Shown piece by piece: positions 5,731-63,236 of a stretch of 64,000 bases of DNA. The notes below the pieces were generated by a model. That model worked only from the letters and a program-made list of their open reading frames with translations, had not been told where the DNA came from and made no database searches. The stretch comes from Flammulina velutipes. Taxonomy: Eukaryota > Basidiomycota > Agaricomycetes > Agaricales > Physalacriaceae. The stretch is from NCBI GenBank assembly GCA_011800155.1, contig CM022371.1, positions 3,596,001 to 3,660,000 on the forward strand, given 5' to 3'. Numbering within the stretch: the stretch's first letter is position 1; each line of letters begins with the position of its first letter. Position numbers and translations under genes: made by a program.

Positions 5731-6740
5731 TTTATGACAGGTTTTTTTTTTCGGGGGAGGGAGTATTAGTGTCGCACATATGTATATATCATGTCTTGGT
5801 TGCGAGTATATGTTCGAGACGTTCGCAATAGGTAAGTCGGCTGAACGCATTTTTGAGAAGAAAACACCCACCCGAAAAGATGTTCTGTAGTATTTGAAGC
5901 CCCTCCGACTTTGAGTCTTTTGTTCATTCTTTTATATATATATATACATATTCGTAGTTGTAGTGAGAGTCTAGGCACTGGTGGGTTTTTTTTTTTGCTT
6001 CGTTTAAAGAGTGTGCGAAACTTAGGATATGCATGGATTAAGGTGTAATATTTGGAAGAGAAGAACGATGTGATTGGAACCAGTGTCGAAGTGGCCGCTG
6101 CCTGGATGCTCGAATGAAAGAGAAGTGGGGCGTCGAGGGTTAGACCAGGCTTTGTCGACCGAGAGAGGAATGTGTATGGGGACCAGGTGAGGTCGATAGC
6201 GTGTTTGCCAACAAGGGCATTGTAGCGCCACGTTTTTCAATCAGACCGGTCGTGCAGAAGTTGGAGTTCCTTAAGCTTTAAACGTCAGAGAGATGTATTC
6301 CTTGAATAGATAGGTATGTTATCGGTGCGATACGGGGTAGAGATACACATCTGCAGGCTGTTCCACAAACACATAAGCACAATCGCGCATTTCCATTTTA
6401 TTGTATGTAGGTTCAGCCTGTCAGGGTGCGGTTTATGGTGTGCCAAAGGGGGTAGGCATTCCAGATAGTTAGTAAGCATGAGAGAGTCGTGTCGTTACGT
6501 ACTCCAAGGTTCGGCGAAATGTATAGGTTTGCGCCGCGTAATAGATGCGAATCACCCTCTGTTCAATACGCTCAAGAAACTTTCTGTTGGGCAGATTTGT
6601 AGTGGAAGAGGAAGAACAGAAGAGTTGACTGATTCGTACGCATGTTAGAGATGCAAATTCCGAGGCAAGTGGTACACATACTATGAAACGTACAAGTTGT
6701 TGAGTTCATCTTCAGTGAAACGTCAAAGTGTGCGTTATGC
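5731..6740. other. Intergenic spacer between tandem F-box genes
   Basis: No gene seen. It holds a poly-T run near 5742, a short (TA)n stretch around 5934-5948 and a poly-T run near 5986. The last 60-80 bases are recognisably homologous to the 5' end of the upstream F-box gene but contain an in-frame stop at 6684-6686. Confidence 0.5.
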
Positions 6741-8306
6741 TTGTTCAACGCTGTTGAAAAGACCAGCGTGCGCGACCCACAGCTTGAACCCTATCTGTTC
6801 ACCAACCTTGGACCTGATAAGTTAGGTCTTTCGATTCTAGCAGCAAGTCTGGAGCGTGCAGAAATATTCGGAGGTCAACTCGATAATTTGGCTTCGGCGC
6901 TAGAGGTGGCCTTGAAGCGTGTCAAAGACGCAAGAAGTGCCGTCGAGTCGTCCATCTTCCGACACAAAGGAGCCCTTCATCCAATCCGCTCGATCCCTGA
7001 TGATATTCTGTTCAGCATCTTCGAATGGTGTACGCTGATGGCGACGTACGATCGCGATGCGCTTTCCATGGTGCCAGAGGACGCCCCTTGGACACTGTCT
7101 CGTGTTTCCCATGGGTGGCGGAATTTGGTCCTGAGCTCTCCCAGTTTGTGGTCGACCGTCAATATCCATCCTCTCTCCTTTCAGGTAGGGGCGGCGCGCA
7201 GAGCAAATTTATTGTCATGGCTAGAATTGTTGCTCCGCCGCTCCGGGCGTAGCGACTTGCATGTCCGCGTGTCCGGTACCATGATGGATCCAGTCACCCG
7301 TTGGCCTGTGTCAGACCACGTCCTCCTGGTGACATGTTTCCAGTCGTTACGGGCATCGACGAGCCGGTGGAGGACGGCAGAATTGAAGAACGTACACCAC
7401 GGTCTGACTTCGATGTTTACCGGGATCGTGTTTGAACGGTTAAGCGACCTGACGTTGACGTTTATGGAGATCCATGGCGCTGTGGTCGGTCCCGTTCGCT
7501 GGTACACACCGAATGTGACTCGTGTTGCGCTGACGGAGTGGGCAGTCGGGATGGTGGAACTGTCATGGGCAAACGTCAGATTCTTCCATTGTCAGGCAGT
7601 ATCGATTTGGCATCTTCCCTCATGTGTCGCATTGGAGGAGCTCGTGATAACCCAGGTCGACGAGGAATCAATCCAGGTCGCCAATATCCAAACGCCTGTC
7701 GTCCTTCCCAGCCTACACACTCTGAGCATCCTGCACTGTGTTCCTCAGATCCCGGACCTCCTAGTCCTTCCGTCAATAATTACTCTTTGGCTGGATTTCG
7801 ATGCAAGTGGGTCGAAGGAATATCCCAGGTTCGGTGGAGCCATCCAGCGTATCCATAATCTCAGGCTAGGGAGTGCCGTAGCCTGCGGCAGTAGTGTGGA
7901 ATCACTACTCGCGTTCCTCAGAGCTTGCGTCTCTGTTAGGGCTTTGTACGTCGACTCAGGGATTGTCAATGGTGAGGTGTTGGCAGCTTTGGAGATATCT
8001 GAGGGTCGCGAGGATGACATCCTGTTACCTCAAATGACGACGTTGGGATTCGCTCCGGAAGTCCTAGACTTATTCCCACATGGTCTCTTGGACTTAGTTC
8101 TATCTAGAAGCGGGGAAGCAAGTCGGTCTCTGCATCGTCTCACGGAGTTGAAGGTGATGCAGTTCCCGTTTCTGGAAGGGTACGCAGAGGGAATCTTGAC
8201 AAGGGTCACGGAGTGGGCACCAGATGTGATGGAGAAGTGGAGAGCGGTCAACGAGAATGTTCAAGTGACAGATGTTTACGTAGATTACTTTTGTCTTGAA
8301 GTGTGA
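6741..8306 (+). CDS. F-box-like / LRR protein, 5' end unresolved or decayed
   Basis: A 521-codon open frame clearly paralogous to 4057-5730. It has the same N-terminal helical segment, the F-box-like core HPIRSIPDDILFSIFEWC, the WRNLVLSSPSLWS element and an LRR-like C-terminal two-thirds. The presumed role is an SCF substrate adaptor. The conserved CALC element lies just upstream (about 6729-6740) in frame, but the frame meets a stop at 6684-6686 where the paralogue reads through. No in-frame ATG occurs before the F-box itself. Either an unrecognised upstream exon supplies the start, or the gene has lost its 5' end. The body is otherwise intact, so if it is a pseudogene it is recent. Confidence 0.7.
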   Translation: MFNAVEKTSVRDPQLEPYLFTNLGPDKLGLSILAASLERAEIFGGQLDNLASALEVALKRVKDARSAVESSIFRHKGALHPIRSIPDDILFSIFEWCTLMATYDRDALSMVPEDAPWTLSRVSHGWRNLVLSSPSLWSTVNIHPLSFQVGAARRANLLSWLELLLRRSGRSDLHVRVSGTMMDPVTRWPVSDHVLLVTCFQSLRASTSRWRTAELKNVHHGLTSMFTGIVFERLSDLTLTFMEIHGAVVGPVRWYTPNVTRVALTEWAVGMVELSWANVRFFHCQAVSIWHLPSCVALEELVITQVDEESIQVANIQTPVVLPSLHTLSILHCVPQIPDLLVLPSIITLWLDFDASGSKEYPRFGGAIQRIHNLRLGSAVACGSSVESLLAFLRACVSVRALYVDSGIVNGEVLAALEISEGREDDILLPQMTTLGFAPEVLDLFPHGLLDLVLSRSGEASRSLHRLTELKVMQFPFLEGYAEGILTRVTEWAPDVMEKWRAVNENVQVTDVYVDYFCLEV

Positions 8307-16272: not shown

Positions 16273-17966
16273 TCAATCCTCGAGAGGCAACGACTCGCTG
16301 TGGACCTCTGTGATCACCACGCGGCTGCAGGCGTTCCTCCAAGGCCTCGAGTTGATTTCCTCTCGCGCCATCTCCTCTGTTTCTTGGATCCGTTCTTGGA
16401 TGAAGTTTATGTTGTCGTTTGCGTCGAGCTCTTCATAGTCGATGCGGAAGTGCAACATGTTGAGGCGCTGGAGATTGTCGAATGACATGTTTTGGCTGCC
16501 TGTTCGTGAGTATATGATGTTTCGTAGGCTGGCCCCATTATAACGAAAGGCAGAGGGGGGGACGCTCAACGTCGTCAAACGTGGCAGGAGGGGAGGGTTC
16601 CCGACTTGGGACAACGCAGTCAAGACGTTGGTGCAGGCGAACACGGCGTCGAGCTCGAGGGTCTCAAGGGATGTACACTGCGATAGGAACTGGAGGAAGG
16701 GTGCAGCGAAAGTCGGATGAGCAGGTCTGGTGCTGTGGACTGCGAGCCATCGCAGCTGAGGGATGACGCCTTGGAGGGTAGGGTAAAAGAACATGTTCCC
16801 AATCCCCGCATCCTCCACTCCGAAAATGAGCCGCAGGGAGTGCAGGTTTGGGACGATGAGGAGATCCGATAGGGTGGCAGGGAAATACGGGGTATCTTGC
16901 GTTAGGCATAACGCACGTAGGCGAGGAAGGGTGACAGGATCAGTTACCTCGTCTTGGTCGGGGTGAGAGGGTTTTAGTATTTCGAGTACCTCCAGGCTTC
17001 GGCAGTGAGGGAGGTGAGCGAAAGATCGGTAACCGGCGATGAATTTCCGCAGTACGTGCCATGTCAGCTCCACCACGGGGAAGGGCTCCCACAGCGAGAG
17101 TTCTATCAGCCGGGGAGTTATCCAGGTGAAAGTAGGGGGAAGCGGATCGAAGCTATCGTAGAAGGTCATCGTCAAGTGGGTCAAGCTGTCGAAGGTGGCG
17201 TTGGAAAGGTTGGCGGGGAGTGAGGTGAGTACTTTCGTCAGTTTTGCGGTCCGCCATCGTGAAGTCGATGGCCGCAGCACCTTGGCAACGCGCGTGAGCT
17301 GTTTATTGCCCTCCGAATCCATGTCCTCGACATCGCCTGTGATGTCGATGGTAAGAGGGAGTAGTTTGGATCGTTTGACGTAAGTATTGACGTTCGCGAA
17401 CGCCTCGGAATCGTATGGGGGATATTCGAGGGGGTAGATGGTTATGTTGTTCCACAGGCTCGACATTTCTTTGGTGAGCCCGTACCATTTTCTGCAGACG
17501 CCGGCGAGCCTGTCTGGCGGGCCCAATCCTTCCAGTGCGTTTGCGCCGACGTCGGGTAACGAAAGCAGCGCATACCAGGAGAGTATGTTCAGGAGGATCT
17601 CGTTTGGGAGGGAGCGAATGGGGTGGATGACGCTACGTAGGCGGGGAAGGGAGCGCTTGAGGGCGTTTTTCCTTTCTCGTATACTAAACGCCACTGCAAA
17701 TGTCGCTTGTTCCAAGTCGTGTAGTTTGGTTAAGTGCGCCTCGAGAAGGTGCAGGCGGGCGATGGCGTCCTGACGGATTGAGGCGACCACTTGCTGGTTG
17801 GTCCCAAGCACTCTTTCCAAGTCTGCGTTCGCGGGGGGAGGAGACTCGAGGTTCTGCAACTCGCAGACCGGGCAACTGTTGAATGGTCTTTCAGGACGTG
17901 TGGATTGCAAGGAAGAGGGGTTTACCTAGACGCAGGTAAGTCTGAAGTCGATGTAGACTGTTCCAT
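16273..17966 (-). CDS. F-box-like / LRR protein, duplication copy 1
   Basis: I place the start at ATG 17966. A short first exon (about 13 codons) is joined by an intron (donor GTAAAC at 17925, CAG acceptor about 51 nt on) to the long exon, so that an N-terminal CPVC pair follows directly. The product is about 545 residues: a helical segment, then the F-box-like core HPIRSLPNEILLNILSWY, the VCRKWYGLTKEMSSLWN element and an LRR-like C-terminal two-thirds. The expected role is an SCF-type ubiquitin-ligase adaptor with unknown target. The CxxC element and build match the genes at 4057 and 6741, but sequence similarity to those is modest. The paralogue at 25234-26786 is its duplicate. Confidence 0.8.
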
Positions 17967-25233: not shown

Positions 25234-26786
25234 TCAATCCTCGAGAGTCAACGACTCACTGTAGACCTCTGTGATCACCACGCGGTCGCCGGCGTTCCTC
25301 CAAGGCCCCGAGGTGATTTCCTCTCGCGCCATTGCTTCTTCGTCCGAACGTTGGATGAAGGCTTCGGCGCTTGTGTCGACCTCTTCATAGTCGGTGCCGA
25401 TGTGCAACATGTTGAGGCGCTGGAGATTCTGAACGGTGTTGTTCTGGCTGCTCGTTCGTGAGTATATGATGTTTCGTAGGTTGGCCCCATTATCAAGAAA
25501 GGCAGAGGGGGGGACGCTCAACGTCGTCAAACGTGGCAGGAGGGGAGGGTTCCCGACTTGGGACAACGCAGTCAAGACGTTGGTGCAGGCGAACACGGCG
25601 TCGAGCACGAGGGTCTCAAGGGATGTACACTGCGATAGGAACTGGAGGAAGGGTGCAGCGAAAGTCGGATGAGCAGGTCTGGTGCTGTGGACTGCGAGCC
25701 ATCGCAGCTGAGGGATGACGCCTTGGAGGTTAGGGTAAAAGAACGCGTTCGCGACATTCGCATCCACCACTCTGAAAATGAGCCGCAGGGAGTGCAGGTT
25801 TGGGACGATGAGGCGATCCGATAGGGTGGCAGGGAAATGCGGGGTATGTTGCGTTAGGCATAACGCACCTAGGCGAGGAAGGGTGATAGGACCAGTTACC
25901 TCGTCTTGTTGGGGGAGCGAGGGTTCTAGTATTTCGAGTACCTCCAGGTCTCGGCAGTGAGGGAGGTGAGCGAAAGATCGGTAACCGGCGGTGAATTTCC
26001 GCAGTACGTGCCATGTCAGCTCCACCACGGGGAAGGGCTCCCACAGCGAGAGTTCTATCAGCCGGGGAGTTATCCAGGTGAAAGTAGGGGGAAGCGGATC
26101 GAAGCTATCGTGGAAGGTCATCGTCAAGTGGGTCAAGCTGTCGAAGGTGGCGTTGGAAAGGTTGGCGGGGAGTGAGGTGAGTACGTCCAGCAGTTTTGCG
26201 GTCCGCCATCGTGAAGTCGATGGCCGCAGCACCTTGGCAACGCGCGCGAGCTGTTTATTGCCCTCCGAATGCATGTCCTCGATGGGATTGCCCATGATGT
26301 CGATGGTAAGAGGGAGTAGTTTGGATCGTTTGACGTAAACATTGACGTTCGCGAACGCCTCGGAATCGTATGGGGGATCTTCGAGGGTGTAGATGGTTAT
26401 GTTGTTCCACAGGCTCGACGTTTCTTTGGCGAGCTCGTACCATCTTCTGCAGACGCCGGCGAGCGTGTTTGCCGGGAATCCTTCCAGTGCGTTTTCCTCG
26501 TCTTCCGAAAGCAGGAGGAAGGCATGGAAAATGTTCAGGAGGATCTCGTTTGGGAGGGAGCGTATGGGGTGGATGACGGCGATGGCGTCCTGAGGGATTG
26601 AGGCGACCACTTGCTGGTTGGTCCCAAGCACTCTTTCCAAGTCTGCGTTCGCGGGGGGAGGAGACTCGAGGTTCTGCAACTCGCAGACGGGGCAACTGTT
26701 GAATGGTCTTTCAGGACGTGTGGATTGCAAGGAAGAGGGGTTTACCTAGACGCAGGTAAGTCTGAAGTCGACGTAGACTGTTCCAT
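25234..26786 (-). CDS. F-box-like / LRR protein, duplication copy 2
   Basis: Duplicate of 16273-17966 with the same two-exon start (ATG at 26786). The N-terminal CPVC region and the LRR-like part are nearly identical. The stretch between is different: 43 residues of the helical segment (those starting RLHLLEAHL in copy 1) are absent, the F-box core is HPIRSLPNEILLNIFHAF, and the following loop (SEDEENALEGFPANTL) is largely replaced. The C-terminal about 40 residues also differ. The frame is kept throughout, so both copies may be functional. The expected role is an SCF adaptor. Confidence 0.78.
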
Positions 26787-45334: not shown

Positions 45335-48119
45335 ATGGTCAACTCCCCCGAGTGGCATGATAGCCACCGGCGACCATCCCTTTATAACGAACTCTGGTGA
45401 GTCGATTCCCTCTGCGCGTTATATCGAGTCACTTGTAGAGCATCTCCCAACGAAACAATATCTTGCGCAGTAAGTCACAAGCTTTGCAGTCCTTCAAGCG
45501 CGGTACTCAATATTTCGACCCAGCTATGATTCCCGTTACTGCTACAAGTGGTCGCCATCTTATCGCGGCCGATCGTGTCTTCACGTCAGTTCGTGGGGAC
45601 ATCCCGCTGCGCCTACCCCCGGAGCGCTATCCAAACCCGGACGAAGTCGTTCGGGAATTCGCTTACAAGCAGGATCTGCAGTGGGTTGACCCCTCGTTGC
45701 CCTTCATCATGTTCATTCCCAAGAATCCCAACCTTCATGGACCTATATTCGGCAGGTTGAACCACCGAGTCGGACGTTTTCCCGTGGAGCAGATTGGACG
45801 TAGGCAGTGGAGGCTCGCGTCCAAGGTCATTGAAGATTGGATTAGGCTGGAGCAAGCCCTACGCATTGTCTTTGATAGGATGATCAATCTCGCTGGACCT
45901 CCTCTTCCATCGAACTTGCGACTCTGGGCGTGGCCGGGTAGGTACGGCTACGAGAGCGCGTATCGTAGCCACGCAGCCGCCCAATCCGTCGCGTTGCGCT
46001 CGCGGAATGCCTTCTTACCTTTGATCGCCGCGACTGCTTTTGCGTTCTGCTGTGTACAGGAATGGGCGGGTCGCTATCCTGGAACTGTGTGGAGGGAGCA
46101 AGTGACCCGGGAGACGAGCATCCATCCCAGTTGGTTGTCCGAGCTCGAGGTCTCCGATGCAGGTGACATGTCAGTGCCTCGTATTGGAGGTATCATCGAT
46201 GTTTCCATTTGGCCTGTGGACCTCATTCATCACATTCTCCAGGCGAACATGCCCATGTATGTTTACTGGCCCTCGTTACCTCCTCATTCACTTTCCCATA
46301 CCCTCTATCGACACGGCATGGTACCCGAACTGAAGGACTGGCTTACGTTACAGTACGACACTCGGACGACACCTCTTCTCTCTTCGTCTCCGTCTTCGTC
46401 TCCCAGTCCTGATGTTCAACGTCACTCGGGCCAACGGCCTGGGGAGCATTGGGCCCATTTTTTCAAGCGCAGGGAGCGGTGGAATGCCTTCGCTGCCGAG
46501 GACGTGAGCGAGCGAGACATGAGTCTACGTGTTGACATACAGAGGACTGTTGAGCAAGGAGGCACTCCTGCTCGGAAAGGAAGGGGTCGTTTATGGAAGT
46601 GGGAAGATGTAGACGGGCATCGAGTGCGTCGATTGGTAGCTCGCAGTGACTTCGAAACCGTCTGGGCCGCGTACTCAACGTTGCAAAGGCGTTACGACTT
46701 GTCTAGCAACACGTGGGACGTGTGTACCGAGTTCGGAGAAGACGATGGGCCCCAAGTCGATGTATCCAACGACAGCAACGACGATGCCTCCAGGCACGCA
46801 AGCGTTTGTGATGCTGAAGGACTTGAGTTGCCTGCGACTCTACTTCCGGAGAAACCTTTCGTTGTTGGTGCACAATTCTCCTCCGCCGCCGATATCGCTG
46901 CTCATTGTCAGGAGGCGGATGGGGACGCTTCCCGTCCAATGGTGTTCGAAACCATGCTCGAGATTGCCTATGCTCGCTATGGGTTCGAAGGTGGAGGCGA
47001 TGACGGTGCAGAGTGGTTGGAGTGGGATAGGGTCCGACAGGTCTTGGGAAATGGATTCCACTTGGAGGATGAAGCTCTTACAGAGCCAAGCGTGGAAGGG
47101 CTGACGCAAGACCGTCTTCGTCGTTTCTTTCAGATCCTATTCGACTCGTCTACGATACATTCCTTCCCAGTCGCCTCGTACGACCTCAGAAACTACGACT
47201 CTGACATCAACCAGAGCATCAAATGGAAGTTCCGCGTCAGAAAGGCGACCATCGACGGAAAGGCGTTCTACCTCTTTCGCTATCCTGACGTGGTTGTCGG
47301 GCACCAGACACTTGTCGAGCTTGGAGTACGGAGTGCAGCGACTGTGCTCCAGGTTGTACGCTCTGAGTGGGGTCCTCTTCTCGAAGATGTTATGTACCAG
47401 CTTCTCATTCGTGGGATAGCCTTCAATACGTTTTGGCATGGGCCTCCACTCAATGCAAGACCTATTTCCCCTTCATCCAACTACCCTCGCCGTCGCGGAC
47501 TAGGATACCGTCCGGTGAATTATACTCCCGACAAGCTTGACTTTCAGGCGTATGTTCACCAGCGCAATGAGCTACTTGGGGGTCCCAAAGGTCGAGCAGC
47601 AATTATGGCGGGTGGGATTCTTGCACGTCTGGCACGAGACGTCGTCGCGGTAAACGACGTGGTCTACGGGGCAGGTCGAGACGTGTTGACTAATGGTCAT
47701 TGCTACTTGGAGAACGACTCGCTGATGACTCCGGCGTGGGACCACTCGCTGACGGAAGATGACATCGATGTTATATGTGGTGTCTATTATGTGGAGACAG
47801 GCAAGTAACTTCCATGAGCGTCTGGCAGCCGCTCCAACGATCTAACTTGTACCTATTAGGCAAGCGTAACGAAGGACAAACAGCACACATGTCGTGGTGG
47901 CCTCGTCCGTCGAGCTTTGCATTCGCTCCTTACAACATCGGCTTCTGGTCGCGTGACTGTGAACGGTTCTACCAGCATAGGCTCGCCAGTTGTTTGACAC
48001 AGACCGCTGATCTCAAAAGTGCAACCGAGTGGAGGGACAGTTTACGTAGAAGGCGAGACGTTCTGATGGTGGTGGAAAGGAACGAGGAGAGAGCGCATGA
48101 ATTTCTACAATCATTGTAG
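45335..48119 (+). CDS. 883-aa basidiomycete-type protein of unknown function
   Basis: Three exons: 45335-45396 (MVNSPEWHDS...), 45471-47800 and 47860-48119. The second intron has a GC donor (GCAAGT) and a CTAAC branch site. The family is one I associate with Agaricomycete genomes. It has an N-terminal block LPFIMFIPKNPNLHGPIFG, a RYGYESAYRSHAAAQSVALR segment followed by a hydrophobic helix, a long middle with an acidic linker, and a C-terminal SWWPRPSSFAFAPYNIGFW signature. No enzymatic motif is seen. It diverges from 44439-45269 and lies upstream of the helicase gene on the same strand. The function is unknown. Confidence 0.75.
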
Positions 48120-48868: not shown

Positions 48869-51800
48869 ATGACATCTACTCAGAACGCGTTCCCCAGTGT
48901 TGAGCAAGAAATGGTACGCATCGCAAAAAAAACGATCACGGACTGCGTTGTAACGTCCTGTCCCATCCCTCTTTAGGAAACAAGTGTCTCGTCAGGCGAT
49001 GAGTGCGATCGCCCCACCCCGTGGTCGTCGCCAGAAGTGAGGCATTGTGACTTTTATTTCATTTTCGCCTGTCGCTGATGATTGTGTTTGAGACGCTTGA
49101 GACCAGCATTCCCTCAGGGGAAACTACGCTAGTTGGAAACACATCTTTCAGCCAAACTCAGGACGACATGAATGTTGTGAGTAGTTCCTAAATGAAAGCT
49201 GTCGTGCAGGTCGCTGACAAGAGTACTGACTTGGTTCTTAGATATCCGAGGACGAAGCGCCTCAGTTGAGCCAGCCTCCTATTCTGCGATCTCCCTCGCC
49301 AATCTACACGTCTGTCTTTCGACGCGTTATGGCAGCAGGTGGCAGCGCCCGACGGGAGGTTGTTGGCTTCGAGCCAACCGCCTCTCCTCCTTTGGCTCCC
49401 CAACTATCCTTTCCCTGCGTGGAGGACGTTCAGGCAAGTCAGGTTTTGTGGGTGCTTAGTCTGCTAACCTTTGGATGAATAGCACCCTGACTCACCGCCC
49501 TTTGGTACCAATCCTGGTCCAGATGCTACGAGCACTCCGAAGAGGAAGCATGGTACTGACAGCGTGAGTCGTTGCCCATGTATCATTGCAACCGCTTGCT
49601 AGATGATCAACAGCAAATCGTCACACTTCCCAAGCCAAAGAAGGTCAAGTTCACTGCTTCGTTCTTGCGTGTGAGTGTCCATTGACATGCTCTGTTTCAT
49701 TGCTACATCTCTGAACACACCCTAGGCTATCGAAAACAATGTGAGTAGTAGCCAGTAGTTTTTTTCTTCCCCTGTCCTATCCCTTGTACTAAACTTTGGA
49801 TGCAAGGCCTCTCAGAACGATGCAGCCGCTGATCAGGGTGCGTCACGGGCAGATGTCTCTGAAGAAGTAAGTTTATTTTATATCACCTTCTAGTAGTGTT
49901 ATGTTTGTTGAATCCGTTCGTCTAGGATGGTGACAATTCTCCGATCGCAACAGAGCGACACCAGCCTGGGTCACCCGGGTTTGTTGAGCCTGTGCTGTCG
50001 AAGCAGGTGTCTGAGAACAGCGAGGCTGCTGTTCCGCTTCCGTCGTCTGTGGGGCAACATTTCCAGCCGCTGCCTATCCCAGCGTCTGCCGTGGGCACCT
50101 TATCGTCCCAGAGGTTGAAGGTATGCAGAAAGATTGTTTGCAGTGTTCGTACGACTCGACATTCATTCATGTTCAATAGGAAACCGCGCATAAGTACCTG
50201 CTCAGCTTGGGTTTGACCTATCACGAAGGACTGCAGGGTGTGGTGTGTGACTGTGGGGTGTGGGTAGAGCGAGGCAACATCCAAGGACATCTCACACAAA
50301 CCCACTTTAAACGCAAGTCCGAGGTGGAGGACATGAACACGGCCATGACTGCTTTGGGAGCGTCGTTCGGGAAGCCAAAGATACCAGGCAATCAGGATTT
50401 CATACCCGGCTTGGTTCTGCACCGTGCCTTCCAGTGCGGAATAAAGGGCTGCCCTGTGGTAATGAAGGCGGCAGATAGCCAGCGAGTTCACAGGAGTATG
50501 TGCCATCAGGGGAGCAAAGCGCCATGGGAGGCTTGCCCTGCGCAGCGCCTCAATCGGTCCGACGCAAAGACGTTCTTTCGCGTGGCCATGCCAGTGGGTG
50601 AGCGAGTAGGAACGACGGTCCATGAGGTTGTTGCGGACATCCTGAAGGACACGAAGAGGAGAAGGAGTGAGGAGCAGAGTCGCGTCGCAGACGAGGACAA
50701 CCGGGTGATCAGTCCTTGGCTGATCACCAACAAGTGGCCGGAGATAGTTGGAGATCGGGCCCCCCAGGAGGTCCGTGACCTGGTGGACAATGTGAAGGAC
50801 ATCCCGAATCTCTCGGATGACCTATGGCGGCTTGTGATGAAGTGCTCCGCAGTCATTCGTGTCACACCCCAGCTCCTGTTGGAGAGGTTGAACACCAGCC
50901 GGCCAGAGCAGTGAGTTTTTCTCTTTCTCTACGGAACTGTCTTCTGATTTATGTCGTCTACCTAGCGGCTTGAGCAACACTCCGTTCCATCATCATCAGA
51001 ACCACTCGGCGACGATGAAGAGCTACGTTGCTCCTGTTCAACGACTGTTGGGTCTGCTTCTCCGGTCCAGCGAGGAGCAGGTACCGCCGCTACGTGCCTT
51101 GGTTGACAAGTACAAAGAATCGAGCGAAAGGCTGGGAGACACGGATGATAGAGAGGAGGCAGTGGAGAATCTTTTCCTCATCTTGCTGTTCTGCTGGACA
51201 CGGCAGTGGTTACCAACGGAGAACGACCTATTCCCTGACCCCACTCTGCGCTCCATAGCGTACGGAAGTGTACGTTTTGACGGAACGTTTAAAGAAGCGA
51301 AGGACACCACCGGAGATTATGCCAAGCTATCCTACGTTCTGCGGCTGATCCTACTGTACGCGATGCACAAGATGTCGTGCCTCACTCTTAGTGAGGCGTG
51401 CGACCATTATTCCCCATGGTTCACAGAGAAGAACGAGTCGACGTTCAACTCTATCCAGTCCGCTCAGCACTACGCAACCTCTGTGGCGTACGCTTCTGTT
51501 GGTCCTTCCGCGCTTTTCTGGCTCGATCCCGGCACATGCAGAGTCATGTCCTGGCGTGGTGACCGTATAATGTTTGACAATGTGATTGCCATGTTCGCTG
51601 CTCAAGGTGAAGAGTTGGTGCGGCAATGGGAGAACCACGTATCACTTGGTTTGCACCAGGATTTTCTCATTTCGCCCATGGACAACGTCTCGGACGACCT
51701 TAGCAACAAGTCTGCAGGCTACTCCTTCCTGTCAGATCGGAGGAACAGCTACCATCGTCATTCGGCTACCGTCCTGACCTCCGTCATTTCTGATAGGACG

Positions 51801-54800
51801 CTGTCAGACCGCTTCATAAACGGGTTCGACTTCGTCACAGGCAAGCCCATGTGGAACCCCGTCGCTATCCAAGCGTACCTGAAGCAAGTGCAGGTGTTCA
51901 GCGGACTGCTGTTAACTCGTTGTGAGATGGTGTCCGGTGCACCTATCCGTGGCACGGAACTCACTAGCATGACTTTCCGAAATACCGCCACTCGGAGGAG
52001 AAACTTGGTCATGTTTGGAAAATACATGCTCTTGCTTGGGATGTACTCCAAGACGACGTCGGGCACAGGCAACGACCGGCTTATTGCTCATGCGGTTGAC
52101 GCTCTCACCAAGGCGCTCCTGACAGACTTCCTTACCTTCATCCGTCCGTTTGTTCAAGTCTTGGTGTCACAATGCTTCTCTGCCCACACATACCCTGGTC
52201 TGCACGACATGTACGACAGCTTTCTGTTCGTTGACTACGACGCGCTGTTCACTACCGAACGACTGTCAGCGATGATGAGGGAAAATACCAGGGTCCATCT
52301 CGACGTGCCTCTCCCCATCTCCGAGTGGCGCCACGTCTCCATTGGCTTTCAGAAAGTTCACTGTCGCAGAGAACTTCACGCTGTAAACCATGTCGATGAA
52401 GGAGAGCGAATCGCAGCTGAGCAGGCAGGGCATTCACATGGCATTGAGAGCCGTATGTACGCCCTCAGTTCGGATGGTATCCAGGGCACGCCGGGTCATG
52501 AGCTGCACCTCTTCTGCAACGTGAGCGTCACTTACCAGACAGCCACCCGTGTTGTACCCGCCGGAGTGGAACTATCGTATCGTGGGTGCATGCCAGATAA
52601 GTTTGAGCAGCTAGTCGCCCAAGGTGTCATCGCGCCTCTGGGAAGTGCTTCCCCGGAGCAAGTCATCGCAAACAGAGTTGTGGAGTTACTCAAGCCGTAT
52701 ATCTCCCAATTGATGGCACCAGTTCCTAGTGAGTAATGTTCGGTAGCCTTCCATGACATCTAATATCTGACCTTCTTCTCCCATTTTCAGCGAAATCGAA
52801 AGGGGATGAGGACGAGTTGGAGTATGTGGACAACCCCATGCCAAATCCCATGCCAACCAGAGAGCTGGCGGCACGCATTTCGGACCCTCCGGCTCCTTGC
52901 CCTCCCTCAGGTGCGGAGTTCGTTGGCGATGACCAAGAACAACTGACTGTTGATGAAGAGGAACGGGAAGACTTTTCACGAGAGCTATCCGTGGGGTCTG
53001 ATACCTGGTTTGGCAACAGGGAGCCTCGTCTCTCTGAGAGTGTTAAAATCAACATACTTCCAACATTTGATACCACGGACGCGCTCACAGTTCTTCGTCA
53101 GCTTCTCCAGGACGCGGAGGCGCAGTGGAGCAGCTCGCTTCAGTCATGGGGAATCGCTCACATCATGGAGAGCAAGCACGACGTTCTTGCGGTAGGGCCT
53201 ACCGGAAGTGGAAAGACGTTCCTATGGCTCATACCGGCAATCTTGGAAAGACAGCGTGGGAACATCACTCTTGTCATCGTTCCACTACTGTCTCTCCTTG
53301 AAGATTACGAGCGGAGGCTTGGGGAGTACAGTGTTCCCTACCATGTCTATTCCCCCGACGTCACTCCGACCACAGGCCTTCCTCCCGACGTTCGTGTTGT
53401 CCTCGCTACCGTCAATCGAGTACCCACGGAGCTGTTCCAATCCACGATGAAAGCCATCCACCTCAAGACTCCGTTCTCTCGCTTCGTTCTTGACGAGGTA
53501 CACTACGTCCTTACTTCTGGTGACTATCGCGAAGAGTTCAGCAAAGTGCACGAGACGCGGTTCATCCCAGTTCCTCTTGTCCTGATGTCCGCGACGGTTC
53601 CTCCTCATCTCGAGAAGATCGTCAAGGACAGGTATCAGCTAACCAACCCGTACGTCTTCATTCGGGCGTCTACGGAGCGTTCGGGGACCAAGTACTCTGT
53701 GTTGGAACCGAGTCAGACCGAGGAGGATCTCTGTCATCGTGCGGTGACTATCGTAAATGAAGAACTTGGTCATCTCCATCCCCGGGATCGCATCCTAGTC
53801 TTCGTGTCTTCGAAGAGGGTTGGAGAGAGGCTCGCACACACGCTTTTCTGTGATTTTTATTTCTCTGGAAAGAACGCGTCTGGGGGTAACGGTCTCCGCA
53901 GTACGAGGCGTTCCATCATTCTCTACAATTGGAGACGGGGCGAGAACCCGGTTCTGGTCAGCACGAGCGCCCTCGCCGCTGGGAATGACTACCCGTTCAC
54001 TCGTTTGGTTCTCCACGCTGGCACACCCACTGGCATGCTTGACTTTATCCAAGAAACAGGCCGTGCCGGTCGTGATCATCGACCTGCCAAGTCAATCGTC
54101 ATCCCGTTCCAGTCAATCGACTGGATTCTTCGCAAGAATCCAGAAGACTATGGTGGCGTGAAGGCCATGATGGAATATATCGAAGGAGGTTCCTGTCGTC
54201 GGTACATGTTGAACAAGTTCAATGATGGTGAACGTCGTTCCTGCAAGGTTCGTTTGTCGTCTCCTTCTCCTTGAAGTTTGTCGCTGACATGGTATAACGT
54301 TAGGATGTGTGGAACGTGCAGCTCTGTGACCACTGTACAATGGTGCAGTCTATCATACCGTTGCCCAAGAAGACAGTCCTTGCTATGGCAGCTGTTGGTC
54401 CAAAGCCGCCTACACCCATCGTCGTCGAACAGCAACAGGTGCAATCAGCTTCATCGTCGAGTTCGCAGAAGCAGGGAACGAAGCAACGCGATATTACACC
54501 TTTGGAGACCTTCCAAGATGTTTACAGGCGCATCCGTACGGCTAGTCAGATTCCGGCGTTCCCATGGGTGGATCGTCTCAAGGACGCTCTCGATGTGTTC
54601 CAGAACTCGTGCATGCTGTGTACCACCGAATCGAAATCTGCGCGGTACCATGGAATCAACGGATGTCCTCAACTAGGGACGGCGCAAGGGAGCACGTCAC
54701 AGTATGCTACGACAAGGCAACACTACTTGGAATCCTGGAGGTACAAGCTTAGGTATGGCGACAGGAAGGCTGGCGAGAGGCCGGTGTGTTACAAGTGTCA

Positions 54801-55059
54801 TCTTCCCAATGGCCCTAGCGACTGTTTGCATCCAAAGTTTGCCAAGGAAACCAAATGCCCCTATCCCGATGTCGTCTCTTTGGTCGGGTATCGTGTTCTT
54901 ACGACGCCACCGGTGTTTAAAGCAGCGCAGGGCCACTTTGGAGAGACCTGGCCCTCTACGCCACATTTCGTTGCCTGGGCAACTCAGTCGTCGGCCGTGT
55001 ATCCTACGAACCTTCTAGCCCTCTTTGCGTGGTATTACGAGCGATACTTTAGTCAGTAA
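48869..55059 (+). CDS. Tyrosine-recombinase-like and RecQ helicase fusion protein
   Basis: Thirteen exons; conceptual product 1831 aa. Residues 1-263 are low-complexity and come from nine small exons, all in phase 0, including a 15-nt one (49726-49740) and a GC-AG intron (49434-49482). Residues 264-506 have C2H2-like sites (C286, C288, H300, H305; then C...C...H...H), like fungal DUF3505-type N-termini. Around 830-1005 is a recombinase-like set: R835 in GAPIRGTEL, K869, W961-R962-H963, H996 in AGHS, Y1005. A RecQ-type SF2 helicase follows: Walker A GPTGSGKT 1230-1237, DEVH 1329-1332, SAT, motif VI QETGRAGRD 1515-1523. Then come the RecQ-like Cys cluster (CRRYML...CDHC) and a second Cys-rich tail (CMLC...CYKCHLP). 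The layout resembles fungal telomere-linked helicases. It may act in recombination or element mobilisation. The helicase is certain; the recombinase activity is inferred. Confidence 0.85.
51946..52462 (+). other. Tyrosine-recombinase-like catalytic region
   Basis: Sub-region of the helicase gene. In order: Arg at 51948-51950 inside a GxPxRGxEL motif (box I), Lys at 52050-52052, Arg-His at 52329-52334 (box II), AGHS with His at 52431-52433, and Tyr at 52458-52460. The nine-residue His-to-Tyr interval equals that of XerC/D-type enzymes. The usual HxxR of box II is replaced by WRH, so catalysis is not assured. Confidence 0.6.
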
Positions 55060-55376: not shown

Positions 55377-58300
55377 ATGACAGGGCCTGATGTATCCTAC
55401 GCCATCATCACAATCTGCAGTAGGTCACCTTCAAGCTAGTGGGCCATAATGTCTCACGCTCAAGGTTGTAGTCTAACAGCAATAGGTCCCAAAGTGCAGA
55501 GCAAGCGTCAGATGGTGGCTCTGTGGGTCCCGACCAAACGGTGGTTAACGCCAATACTTCACTCGATGATTTTCTCCAGCAAACAGAGGAGAAAGATGGC
55601 GCAATGTTGGATACGCCATCCAGTGCGCGAGTCCCATTAACGGACAACACAAATCTTCCGCAGAACCGTTCTGTGACGGCTTCCACTAAAGCAGGTGGCG
55701 GAGGGAAGGGTGTCCCCTCCCTTTCGTTCCATGGTCAAGATTCTGGCTCGTCACACGCCGATATCTCGAAGAAGTCTACATTGACGCCACAAGGAAAGGC
55801 GAGTACAATGCAATAAAATCCATACGAACTTTCCCTCAGGTCTCATGCACACACGCAGGAGAAGAAGGCCTCGTCCAGCAAACGTCTGGCCGCAGACAGC
55901 AAGCGTCAGGCCATTGATGAGTTCATTGCCACGGTATGTTGCAACAATGTTTGCATGCGGGATTTCACCGAAGGTTTTTTTTTCTTTGTCTGCACACCAG
56001 GCCAACGAGCCCGAGAATTGGAACGAGATGCTCGCGGCTATCAATAAGGAGGGGGCCGAGGGGGTCGAACAAGCGTTGAAGAGACACTTTCTAGGAATCG
56101 CGCTGTTCGATATCCGTACCCCTATGGTTGAGAACCGATACAACACTCGCGTACCAACTACTACTGCGATCAACCTCCTCTATCGTTCTACAGGGTACGG
56201 CACTGATCTGCAGACGCACAACATCGAGACGGCTCTCAAGATCACTTGTTCTCGCCAATCCATTGATCCCTCATCGCTCACCACCGACATGAACGCGGTT
56301 CCCAAGCCTGCTGTTTGGACCAGTCACGCAAAGGCTCATCCACCCGTCGTAGCAGATGGGCATCACAGGATTGGTCTTCTTCGAGACAAGGTTGTCGAGC
56401 CATTGGAGAAGGATCTCGACATCGTGAGGAAGCACATCGGGGAGGCAGAAAAAGGGAATTACTCGGGTGCGCTCGAGAAGCTATGTAAGAAGAAGAAGGA
56501 GGTGGAGAACCGCATCAAAAGAGACTGCCTGTGGTTAGCAAAGTTGTACGACAAAGGTCCGTAAGCGTTGCTCCCCATGTTGCTAGCAACCGACTTGATC
56601 ACGTTGACGCAGACGGCATTGAGGAAGACGACAATGCGCCTGCACTTATCCTACGGCTGTCTGGAAACAAACGTCTCCACAGTCAGCCAGAGGCAGACAC
56701 GAACAAGCTCATGCTGTTATGCAACCAGTGGGACAAGTGCAAGCCAGAGGAGAAGGAAATTCTGCTTCCTCAGTTGGCTTCAAAAGTACTTGACATGGAT
56801 ACCAACAAGCGCCTACATGTCATCGTGACCAACGCTAGGTTAATGAAGACCATTGCAAGCCTTCTCAACATGGAATGGATGTCAGGCAACCCTTCGTGGC
56901 TGATGTACACTCGATTACATTTTCTGGCCACTCATACGGAAGGCGTAAGTTGCCTCCTTCCTCTGACTCGTGTGAATCGGTCTGACTCGGATTGAACATC
57001 AGATTTTCACCCCCATTGTGGACTCACTTCGTCCTTGTCTGGCTTGGCTCTTTGGCAAGGCAGCGACTCGCCTCCCACCCTATTCGGATTTCCTTGCTCT
57101 CGGTCCCGGAGAGCAACAAGCCTTGCTGGAGGAGCAGCGAAAGCACTTGGTTGCAGCAGAGGACACCAAAGACATCCCTCCATTTGTGATGGAGCTAGCC
57201 GATGATGCGTACAAAGACGTCTTCAAGGACAAGGAGCCGTCTACCGTCGCGGAGCTCTTTGGAGTCTCTCGGGACCGGCATCCTGTTCGGTACGGGAAAT
57301 GGATGGTGCTTATAGAGCGGTACGCAGAGAACTTCTGTGCCCGACTGGACAAGGTAATACCCGGGTATAACGGTCCACGGAAGGCTAGTGTCGAGAAACT
57401 CCCCGAAAGTATACGTTACCTCTTGCTTTCCAAGCTTACACACCGTAGCGCAACATTTCAACCTTTGGCTTGCACCTTCCCAACGATTCCTCCACTCCTC
57501 ACATCCTCATTCGTTCATGATCTGGTCCACATGCTGACCCCGGACGAGAAGAACACGGACGGAGCGCTGGCATGGAAAGCAGCGTGGACGACTGTGAGTT
57601 CAATCCGTCCCGTTGTAGTTATGAAAGCGAAACTGACGGTGGGTCATGCTCAGTTGACATGCTCAGGGGAATGGAGCACACTCGTGGAAGTCGATGATCC
57701 CATCCTTGGACACGGAGCTGTCAATATGAGTAATCGTTACCTACGTTTGGCGCTCAACAACCCGGACGACAGCGCGATCCTCCCGTTCCTTCGTGCCAAT
57801 GTGTTCTTGAAGCACCGACTTGGCGGGTTCCTTCGCTTGGAATGCTTCATGTATGAGAACCTGGACAAGTACTCTCTTCGAAAGATGGCAACCAAGCTGG
57901 AGGATTATGCGCCCGCTCTAGAACCCGGAATTAGCATCGACAGAATCGCCATTTGCGTGGAAACGTTGTTGAAGCAATGGATGAAACTGCCGGTGTCTGG
58001 GACCATGCAGAAGCAGGAGATCACTCTGGGGAAGGCTCGCGAGATGATGAAGACGAATGTCGCTTGGGCGGAAGTAACGCAAGACGAAAGCTGGTACCTC
58101 ACGGTCATCTTTGCGATGCTGTCCAACTCGGAGGCTATGTTACACAAGTATTCATCCTCCAGGCGTGCAAGCCTCTATCGCAGCAGTTTGACGAAGAAGC
58201 TCATTTACGCTCTTGTGCGCTATACATGCAATCGGTACGCCTTTCAATATCCCGCGGCCTACCACCTACGCCACGATTGGAACAATATCGCGACTCGAAC

Positions 58301-58952
58301 TACAGTACCTGTCCTATCTTCCTGGGACGGGATCGTGGTAGGTCCCAAGAACTGGGAGATTCTGATGACAGAGGCTGAAGAGGAGTTACTGGCTCGCGAG
58401 TACAATGATCTTCACGAAGTGGTGGCACTGCAGAGAGAGCAAAAGACGCTTGAGAAGTTCCTGTTCAACTCACGGCTAGCAAAGTACACATTTGTACGTA
58501 CTGGGGCCGATGGGGCTGAGGAGCTGGTGGAGGAACTGGACGAGCTGTTTGTTCAGGGTATCAACATGATGCGTGCGGTCCGTCGTCTTTGCGCCACTCA
58601 TCGCATCGGTCTTTCCTTTGACACTCTTCTTACTAGGCGCAGTACAAGATGAACTTCATCCACAAACAGAAGATGAGAAATCCATCTTTTGAAGAGCGCA
58701 ACGTTACTACGGACTTTGTGATTAATCAGGTGAAGGAGCAAGGACAATGGCTTGTTGTGGAGAACAAGCCTTCGGACGTTCAGGCATATTGGGACAGACG
58801 AGTGGGAAAGAAGGTTGCCACGTCGCGGAAGAAACGGCCTGCCCCAGAGTCGAACCAAGGCGGCAAGTTCCTCTTCATATTTCCAGTCCCTTGTACTCAC
58901 TACTACGGCAGAAGCGCCCAAGAAGAAGAAGCAGAAGAAGACGAACAAGTGA
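55377..58952 (+). CDS. B1: large protein of unknown family, paralogue of B2
   Basis: Modelled exons: 55377-55423, 55480-55798, 55859-55933, 56001-56556, 56613-56944, 57003-58577, 58637-58862 and 58912-58952, about 1056 aa. Two introns use GC donors (55799, 58863) and two use GTCCGT (56557, 58578). The N-terminus is a disordered Ser/Asp/Lys region. The core holds helical blocks shared in order with B2 (LWLAKLYDK; HLRHDWNNI; FIHKQKMRNPSFEE after the last long intron). The C-terminus ends in a basic APKKKKQKK nuclear-localisation-like tail. If the last GC intron is not spliced, the product ends at 58966 with an acidic tail instead. It starts only about 320 bp after the helicase gene on the same strand. 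The function is unknown; the first exon is the least certain. Confidence 0.65.
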
Positions 58953-62130: not shown

Positions 62131-63236
62131 GTGCAGGACAAGAAACGTTCGCTTATTAACCGAACGTCTTGCATGCTCGAGAATAAATACTCGGGCACCC
62201 ATTATCTGGTTTGCCGCACTCACGCCATGGCGGCGATTCACGATTCTTACCTGCAAGAGGCGGTCAGAAAGTTATATTCCCAGGTCCCAGAGGCTCGTTT
62301 GATACCTCCTGACCCAGATGACACCCCCGAGAAATTTACTGTCCCAAAGTTTCCCAATCCCACAGAATACTATTGTTGGTCCGATCGTCCACCTGTTTCT
62401 GTGTCAGATCCAGCATGGCTCGATAAGCAAATAGTTGAGTTTGGTGTCATTGCATTGATGCCTATGCTGGGTCCAGCTTATCCTGAGTTGTGCGTCGTAT
62501 CTTAGTCCAATTGGTGACTTGTGGTTACTGACAGCCATTTCTAGTTTCTTGTACTGCAAAGTCGTCTCTCCAGACTGTAGCGGTACGGTGATGTGTGTCA
62601 TGCTGAGCATGACTACACACGGGAACGATGTAAGTCGCCGCTGGAAGACACTTGCGTAAGCCGCTTTCTAAATTTCACCTGAAGCTTTTCTGACCGCTTA
62701 GTGTCATACTGTTGAGCGACACGGCTCCGTTGGCACATGTCTTCAGGCAGCGAGCAGTTAGCACGACATTGCGGTTGGTCCCTACTACTACTATGACCCT
62801 CCGAATGTTTGTCGGCCGTATCGAAATCCATGGACTTTCGCTGTTTCGGAGTAACGAAGCAGGGCACGGCAGCCGCAGATGGGCAACGTCAGTCCTCCGG
62901 TCGCTCAAGATCGGAAAATGTCTCGACGTTGGGGCCCAATGGGACCCGGATGACTACGTTCGTAGGTACGTTCGGACTATCTCTGAGATCAGTAAATCTC
63001 TCGACAGGTACGATGGAATCGCAAGCGATGAAGGGTCGTACTTTGGCTTCGAAATTAGCCTTATCAGAGCGGAGCATGAACGTTTGAAGGAGAGCCACTG
63101 TCGCGCGAATGAAGCAGAAGAGAAACGTTTACAATGGGTAGGCTGGGCCAAGGGAGTGGTCAGCGATTGGTATATGTGGCGAGAGCAGTGCATGGCATTG
63201 AATTACCACCCAGATGAGATTGAATACGTAGCCTGA
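62131..63236 (+). CDS. Unrecognised multi-exon protein
   Basis: After a GTGCAG acceptor near 62137 an open frame encodes a Cys/His-containing start (SCMLENKYSGTHYLVCRTHA), then a Pro-rich middle. It splices near 62490 (GTGCGT donor) into a second exon (FLYCKVVSPDCSG...) that ends at a GTAAGT donor at 62630. The downstream frame 62712-63236 ends in a charged helical domain (WVGWAKGVVSDWYMWREQC...). How the last part is joined is unclear: the in-phase frame after the acceptor at 62700 stops early. The paired C...C and C...H positions could bind a metal. The first exon is not identified. Confidence 0.4.

Follow-up and report, generated by a model that had tools for sequence, protein, structure and literature searches.

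We analysed a 64,000-nucleotide stretch of the Flammulina velutipes genome (assembly GCA_011800155.1, contig CM022371.1, here C4:3596001-3660000; hereafter the window), in which a gene at 48869..55059 appears to encode a tyrosine recombinase (YR) fused to a RecQ-like helicase. Rebuilt from its splice sites, the gene runs on the plus strand from an ATG at 48869 to a TAA that ends at 55059, and its 13 exons encode 1831 amino acids with no internal stop. All 12 acceptors are AG and the donors are GT, except for one GC-AG intron after exon 4. An earlier sequence-only reading of this DNA had proposed a single 13-exon gene with a continuous frame, and the spliced model bears this out. The parts of the gene are as follows, in window coordinates.

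48869..55059, plus strand: whole gene, in the order low-complexity N terminus (exons 1-9), OrsD/C2H2-like fingers, YR, RecQ-like helicase, zinc motif and Cys-rich C terminus
50216..50506, plus strand: OrsD (PF12013)-like zinc-finger region, residues 276-372, exon 10, with two Cys/His clusters
50967..52727, plus strand: predicted YR core-binding and catalytic domains, residues 508-1094, codons of exon 11
52793..54247, plus strand: SF2/RecQ-like helicase core, exon 12 (Pfam DEAD 6.6e-18, Helicase_C 6.3e-12)
54194..54336, plus strand: RecQ-type zinc motif CRR...C...CxxC, interrupted by intron 12
54304..55059, plus strand: exon 13, Cys-rich C-terminal region, 34.5% identical over 255 amino acids to the copy on contig C3

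The region ahead of the helicase occupies a single open exon (exon 11, 50966-52728). At E 5 this exon has no Pfam match, nor do 13 members of its family, and PDB sequences gave no meaningful match by phmmer or by hmmsearch with a profile of the family. We compared the family with a YR profile of 156 rows, drawn from the seeds XerD, XerC, FimB and FimE, 158 frames from YR loci (with XerD as the single query), lambda Int and Cre. Residues 790-1030 of an 18-row family alignment matched this profile with an hhalign probability of 93.0 (E 3.5e-7 for this single comparison, score 50.4, 176 columns). The controls scored 13.3 +/- 2.1 with a maximum of 20.8 for 200 column shuffles, 13.4 for the reversed profile and 11-17 for four other stretches of exon 11. 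A 13-row version of the family matched at 76% with a score of 39.0, against a maximum of 25.5 in 200 shuffles. At 15% identity, the profile alignment pairs R835 with XerD R148, R962 with R247, H996 with H270, Y1005 with Y279 and S959 with H244. Fold comparison of the predicted structure likewise returned a YR-like fold, the top 25 of the 50 matches listed all being recombinases; no type IB topoisomerase (TopIB), protelomerase, Crypton or Starship captain structure is among those 50, an absence that excludes nothing. The sequence-only reading had suggested that the region before the helicase is a recombinase fold, its box-I context and H-to-Y interval matching YR enzymes such as Xer. For the window gene and its aligned family, that suggestion agrees with the profile match, with the predicted structure, which did not refute it, and with the residue conservation described below; the likeness to Xer extends to R-R-H-Y in the register of XerD.

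Conservation was read from the 18-row alignment, which comprises the window protein, three paralogues and 14 proteins (P0001-P0013 and P0016) out of 26 homologues retrieved, its members being 19-66% identical to the window protein. Excluded from the counts were P0014, which lacks an aligned box I and has Gly where R962 would align and Tyr where Y1005 would, and P0017, which does not align in the YR region. Ten more proteins (P0015 and P0018-P0026) were set aside on Pfam matches, name and coverage of 9-24% (P0026 has no coverage figure), irrespective of any YR region. The candidate catalytic positions are these.

51948..51950, plus strand: R835, box I Arg, aligned to XerD R148; 18/18
52050..52052, plus strand: K869, proposed hairpin Lys in a YxK motif; 18/18
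52320..52322, plus strand: S959, site of the absent box II His (XerD H244); His in 0/18
52329..52334, plus strand: R962-H963, box II (XerD R247 and the next residue); Arg 18/18, His 16/18, with Gln in P0006 and P0013
52431..52433, plus strand: H996, GHS motif (XerD H270); 16/18, with Arg in P0010 and P0012
52458..52460, plus strand: Y1005, predicted nucleophile (XerD Y279); 17/17, P0008 stopping short of the column

The residues picked out by the sequence-only reading sit at exactly these positions, with GAPIRGTEL beginning at residue 831 and H996 and Y1005 nine residues apart, a spacing that recurs in all 17 rows reaching the Tyr. R835, K869, R962, H963, H996 and Y1005 all fall within the 18 near-invariant residues of 587, near-invariant meaning at least 88% identical over at least 16 informative rows. 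When residues of matching types were drawn at random 200,000 times, no draw fell wholly within that near-invariant set, a count that gives no formal probability because the rows are related. The copy on contig C9, outside the alignment, retains R, K, R, H and Y and has Gln at the place of H963. Invariance of the Arg, Lys and Tyr positions, on which the reading was to stand or fall, is thus observed in the aligned rows that reach them; that of H996 holds for most rows but gives way to Arg in two. The predicted catalytic set is R-K-x-R-H...H-Y, in which x, the place of the missing HxxR His, is Ser, Asn, Gln, Arg, Leu or Ala across the 18 rows. K869 is the candidate for the hairpin Lys because it is invariant and lies between strands 353-360 and 370-376 of the AlphaFold model. 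As the Tyr and the second Arg, both lost in DUF3504 genes, are retained, an active site has probably been maintained by selection.

The flanking domains stand on differing evidence. Cys/His clusters are present in exon 10 where C2H2-like fingers had been described, but in the window protein itself the OrsD/PF12013 match is weak (Pfam E 0.0019) and falls under the curated gathering cut-off; in homologues P0002 and P0005 the same Pfam family is matched above the cut-off. The SF2/RecQ motif set claimed for the same frame is present in exon 12, with Walker A from 53195, DEVH from 53492, SAT from 53588 and QETGRAGR from 54050, in accord with the Pfam DEAD and Helicase_C matches. A RecQ-type zinc pattern, C-x-R...C...CxxC, was found in 7 of 10 proteins (window, P0001, P0002, P0006, P0009, P0010 and P0011); P0013 and P0016 terminate shortly past Walker A, and in P0012 neither zinc nor helicase patterns were found, yet it has a precomputed DEAD match. 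PF16124 has a sub-threshold match in P0009 (E 0.0017), a precomputed one in P0011 and none at E 1 in the window protein. Among six proteins scanned with Pfam, RQC and HRDC had no match at E 1 in the five that bear a helicase. Pairwise distances in the YR and helicase halves rise together across nine two-half proteins, in which the helicase of the C7 copy is partial (r 0.89; 3 of 20,000 label permutations as high). This joint divergence argues that the fusion is old and has been inherited as a unit. The YR region also occurs without a helicase, in the C8 copy and in P0005 of Agrocybe chaxingu as annotated (852 amino acids, OrsD and YR). The named homologue sources are Hymenopellis radicata, Agrocybe chaxingu and Arthromyces matolae, all of them agarics.

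Searching the assembly (38.1 Mb, 23 contigs) placed the gene in a subtelomeric setting. C4 is 3,698,938 bases long and terminates in TTAGGG repeats; the gene, at C4:3644869-3651059, ends 48 kb from this telomere and is transcribed toward it. A six-frame search found paralogues at C3:16441-18171 (55% identity), C7:9042-10706 (29%), C8:260937-262610 (29%) and C9:18527-19306 (21%). The match on C9 runs through one TGA, and C9:19159-18467 is an open frame. Helicase exons lie beside the C3, C7 and C9 copies, and no helicase was found with the C8 copy, which is interior. Contigs C3, C7 and C9 start with the telomere-repeat complement and carry their copies on the minus strand, so that each of the four copies having both a helicase and a YR match sits near a telomere (about 6-54 kb) and faces outward. 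These four account for part of the 13 helicase matches in the genome; the nine others are weaker (E 1.2e-7 to 4.6e-4) and were taken for other helicases.

One neighbour probably shares this history.

55785..58649, plus strand: downstream gene, family unassigned (frames 55785-56561 to 56976-58649), the longest frame without a Pfam match

A paralogue of this gene immediately follows the C3 copy; the stretch that matches contains one TGA and one TAG, or else introns that went unseen. The downstream gene and the recombinase-helicase were probably paired before the two chromosome ends diverged, which suggests an ancient two-gene cassette.

Elsewhere in the neighbourhood, the upstream plus-strand frame 45439-47805 (789 amino acids, no Pfam match) belongs to a dispersed family with three 770-amino-acid frames on C5, C12 and C3 that match it about equally well (45% identity) and further relatives on C13 and C4; two weaker ones flank the C9 recombinase-helicase. 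It is possibly a transposon protein. Positions 1871-2766 share 72% identity with C9:223-1144, which lies immediately inside the telomere of that contig, and hence represent a subtelomere-like repeat some 100 kb away from the end of C4. Across 1-43000 every 2-kb interval has a positive GC skew (about 0.07 to 0.27), which drops to near zero beyond about 43 kb. F-box-like matches occur at 6687-8303 (below the Pfam cut-off) and at 16276-17925 and 25237-26745 (above it). The frame 62694-63233 has a 50% identical neighbour (141 amino acids) at C4:3660892-3661314, a local duplication.

We propose, with a probability of about 0.72, that the gene encodes a tyrosine recombinase and a RecQ-like helicase in one fused protein, produced by a family of mobile-element-like genes that reside in subtelomeres. 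From these features we infer an enzyme that exchanges strands by means of its Tyr, is guided by zinc fingers and works at chromosome ends with a RecQ-like motor. The fingers and the YR core-binding domain would dock the protein on subtelomeric sites, where Y1005 would attack the DNA, assisted by R835, K869, R962 and H996; the outcome would be a 3'-phosphotyrosyl link and strand exchange of the kind that Xer and Cre carry out. The RecQ-like motor could then open the DNA or migrate the junction, so that a segment circularises, integrates or swaps between chromosome ends. Such exchange would both spread the gene and keep it at telomeres, and the protein could be recruited to rebuild chromosome ends upon telomerase failure.

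Several observations weigh against this proposal. The first His of the box II motif HxxR is missing from every row (S959 in the window protein), a correction that makes the set a His-less variant and not a canonical pentad, and even the remaining His positions vary, H996 to Arg and H963 to Gln in two rows each. When the family was compared by hhalign with an alignment of six named YRs there was no match, and the match needs the large YR profile. Alignment to that profile sets XerD K172 opposite K859, which the family does not conserve, and leaves K869 in a gap. In the model the predicted local distance difference test score (pLDDT) is below 50 at residues 983-1014, including H996 and Y1005, and at 870-874, just after K869, so that no assembled active site is visible. 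The genome copies are old, at 20-55% amino-acid identity to the window copy, and a search for near-identical DNA copies found none, yielding three weak stretches in C3 and thus no sign of recent movement. A recently active element was rejected for want of a near-identical copy; the low copy number and old divergence point to residence rather than active spread.

The same observations bear on an alternative that we regard as less likely, namely that the gene encodes a domesticated host telomere protein which now moves nothing and serves chromosome-end maintenance, for example through subtelomere exchange or through circles that feed telomere rescue by recombination. The age and divergence of the copies, their long intact frames and the failure to find a near-identical one in the DNA would fit such a protein, as would the telomere-adjacent, outward-oriented arrangement of the copies. 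A host role under stress would also suit the RecQ-like UTASa loci, which the available text of PMC10532341 describes as upregulated in telomerase-negative strains of Ustilago maydis. By contrast, the patchy presence of the genes looks selfish, and Agaricus bisporus var. bisporus lacks subtelomeric RecQ genes with no apparent telomere abnormality, according to the portion of PMC7473861 at hand. Because that variety manages without them, such genes are not generally needed for telomeres.

That the YR part is a non-catalytic DNA-binding relic, like the Crypton-derived DUF3504 and Cbf2/Ndc10 proteins, we consider improbable. The absence of the box II His from all 18 rows could be read this way, and comparable relics are known in eukaryotes (PMC3212892, in part). 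Yet the family keeps R, K and R in 18 of 18 rows and Y in 17 of 17, whereas DUF3504 genes have lost the Tyr and the second Arg in the account excerpted from the same source. Nor does the missing His exclude catalysis, since the Sanctuary Starship captain also lacks it, having Tyr there (PMC12506042, in part).

Quite improbable, in our view, is an action like that of TopIB or of a protelomerase, which resolves hairpin telomeres; the domain would then relax or resolve the DNA in front of the helicase. An R-K-R-H-Y set without the HxxR His, together with a nine-residue H-to-Y interval, resembles TopIB and counts for this idea; the recombinases that fill the top 25 fold-comparison rows count against it, as do the ordinary TTAGGG arrays at the telomeres of this genome and, as weak evidence from a single sequence, the 0.1% hhalign probability of N15 protelomerase. 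Finally, a chance motif, with R, K, RH, H and Y picked by eye in a domain that is something else, would accord with the lack of Pfam, PDB-sequence and small-profile matches but is ruled out, as nearly as we can judge, by the agreement of the large-profile match, the fold comparison and the residue conservation.

The recombinase-helicase interpretation put forward by the sequence-only reading is therefore supported for the window gene and its family. Its extension is more tentative, and we would sooner bet against it than for it: the pre-helicase region of fungal subtelomeric RecQ genes would generally be an active tyrosine recombinase, and these genes would form a superfamily of telomere-homing selfish elements, each a one-protein machine to cut, join and unwind DNA, older than the split of the sampled lineages and later borrowed by hosts for telomerase-independent end rescue. 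Several fungi are reported to carry subtelomeric RecQ-like genes of unclear role, for which a conserved recombinase active site offers a testable job. If real, the fusion would bring a new architecture to the eukaryotic YRs, alongside those of Cryptons and Starships, and supply a concrete enzyme for chromosome-end exchange and amplification. No YR in a subtelomeric RecQ-type helicase was described in the titles and abstract openings searched, which mostly did not cover subscription papers and bioRxiv, so the link could already be published; within the reach of those searches, what is new is the identity of the pre-helicase region and its conserved active site.

Among known systems, the telomere-linked or subtelomeric RecQ helicases (TLH; UTASa of U. 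maydis; those of A. bisporus var. burnettii) share with the window gene a near-telomere, telomere-oriented RecQ-like helicase and an association with OrsD/DUF3505. The likeness is one of description. These helicases differ in that the available accounts describe no recombinase domain for them: domain analysis of subtelomeric RecQ-like genes found only the helicase core in the text seen of PMC7473861, and telomere-associated elements combine a helicase with DUF3505 and no RecQ zinc or RQC domain in that of PMC5576322. According to the same two partial sources, RQC and HRDC are likewise lacking in the subtelomeric RecQ proteins of other fungi.

With Xer, Cre and lambda Int the family has in common the fold, the R-R-H-Y register and the H-to-Y spacing, and it differs in lacking the HxxR His and in its fused fingers and RecQ-like helicase. 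CryptonF elements, likened here by description, are also eukaryotic YR genes in fungi, but their proteins carry GCR1_C and PMC3212892 nowhere uses the word helicase; GCR1_C had no Pfam match in the window protein or in the homologues scanned. Starship captains (DUF3435) are also fungal YRs, and in that of Sanctuary the box II His is likewise replaced, Tyr424 standing at Cre His289 (PMC12506042, in part). Captains lead giant elements, whereas the window family has no DUF3435 match (none at E 5 in exon 11 or 13 family members). Membership of the Cryptons or of the Starship captains was accordingly rejected for want of GCR1_C or DUF3435. Elsewhere in the assembly, C6 carries two DUF3435 matches about 12 kb apart (985482-986111 and 998297-998896), which are of note in a basidiomycete because abstracts present Starships as a Pezizomycotina superfamily. 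Like the Crypton-derived DUF3504 and Cbf2/Ndc10 genes, in which hosts have retained a YR-like region, the window family preserves that region; unlike the DUF3504 genes, which gave up catalysis along with the Tyr and the second Arg (PMC3212892, in part), it keeps both residues.
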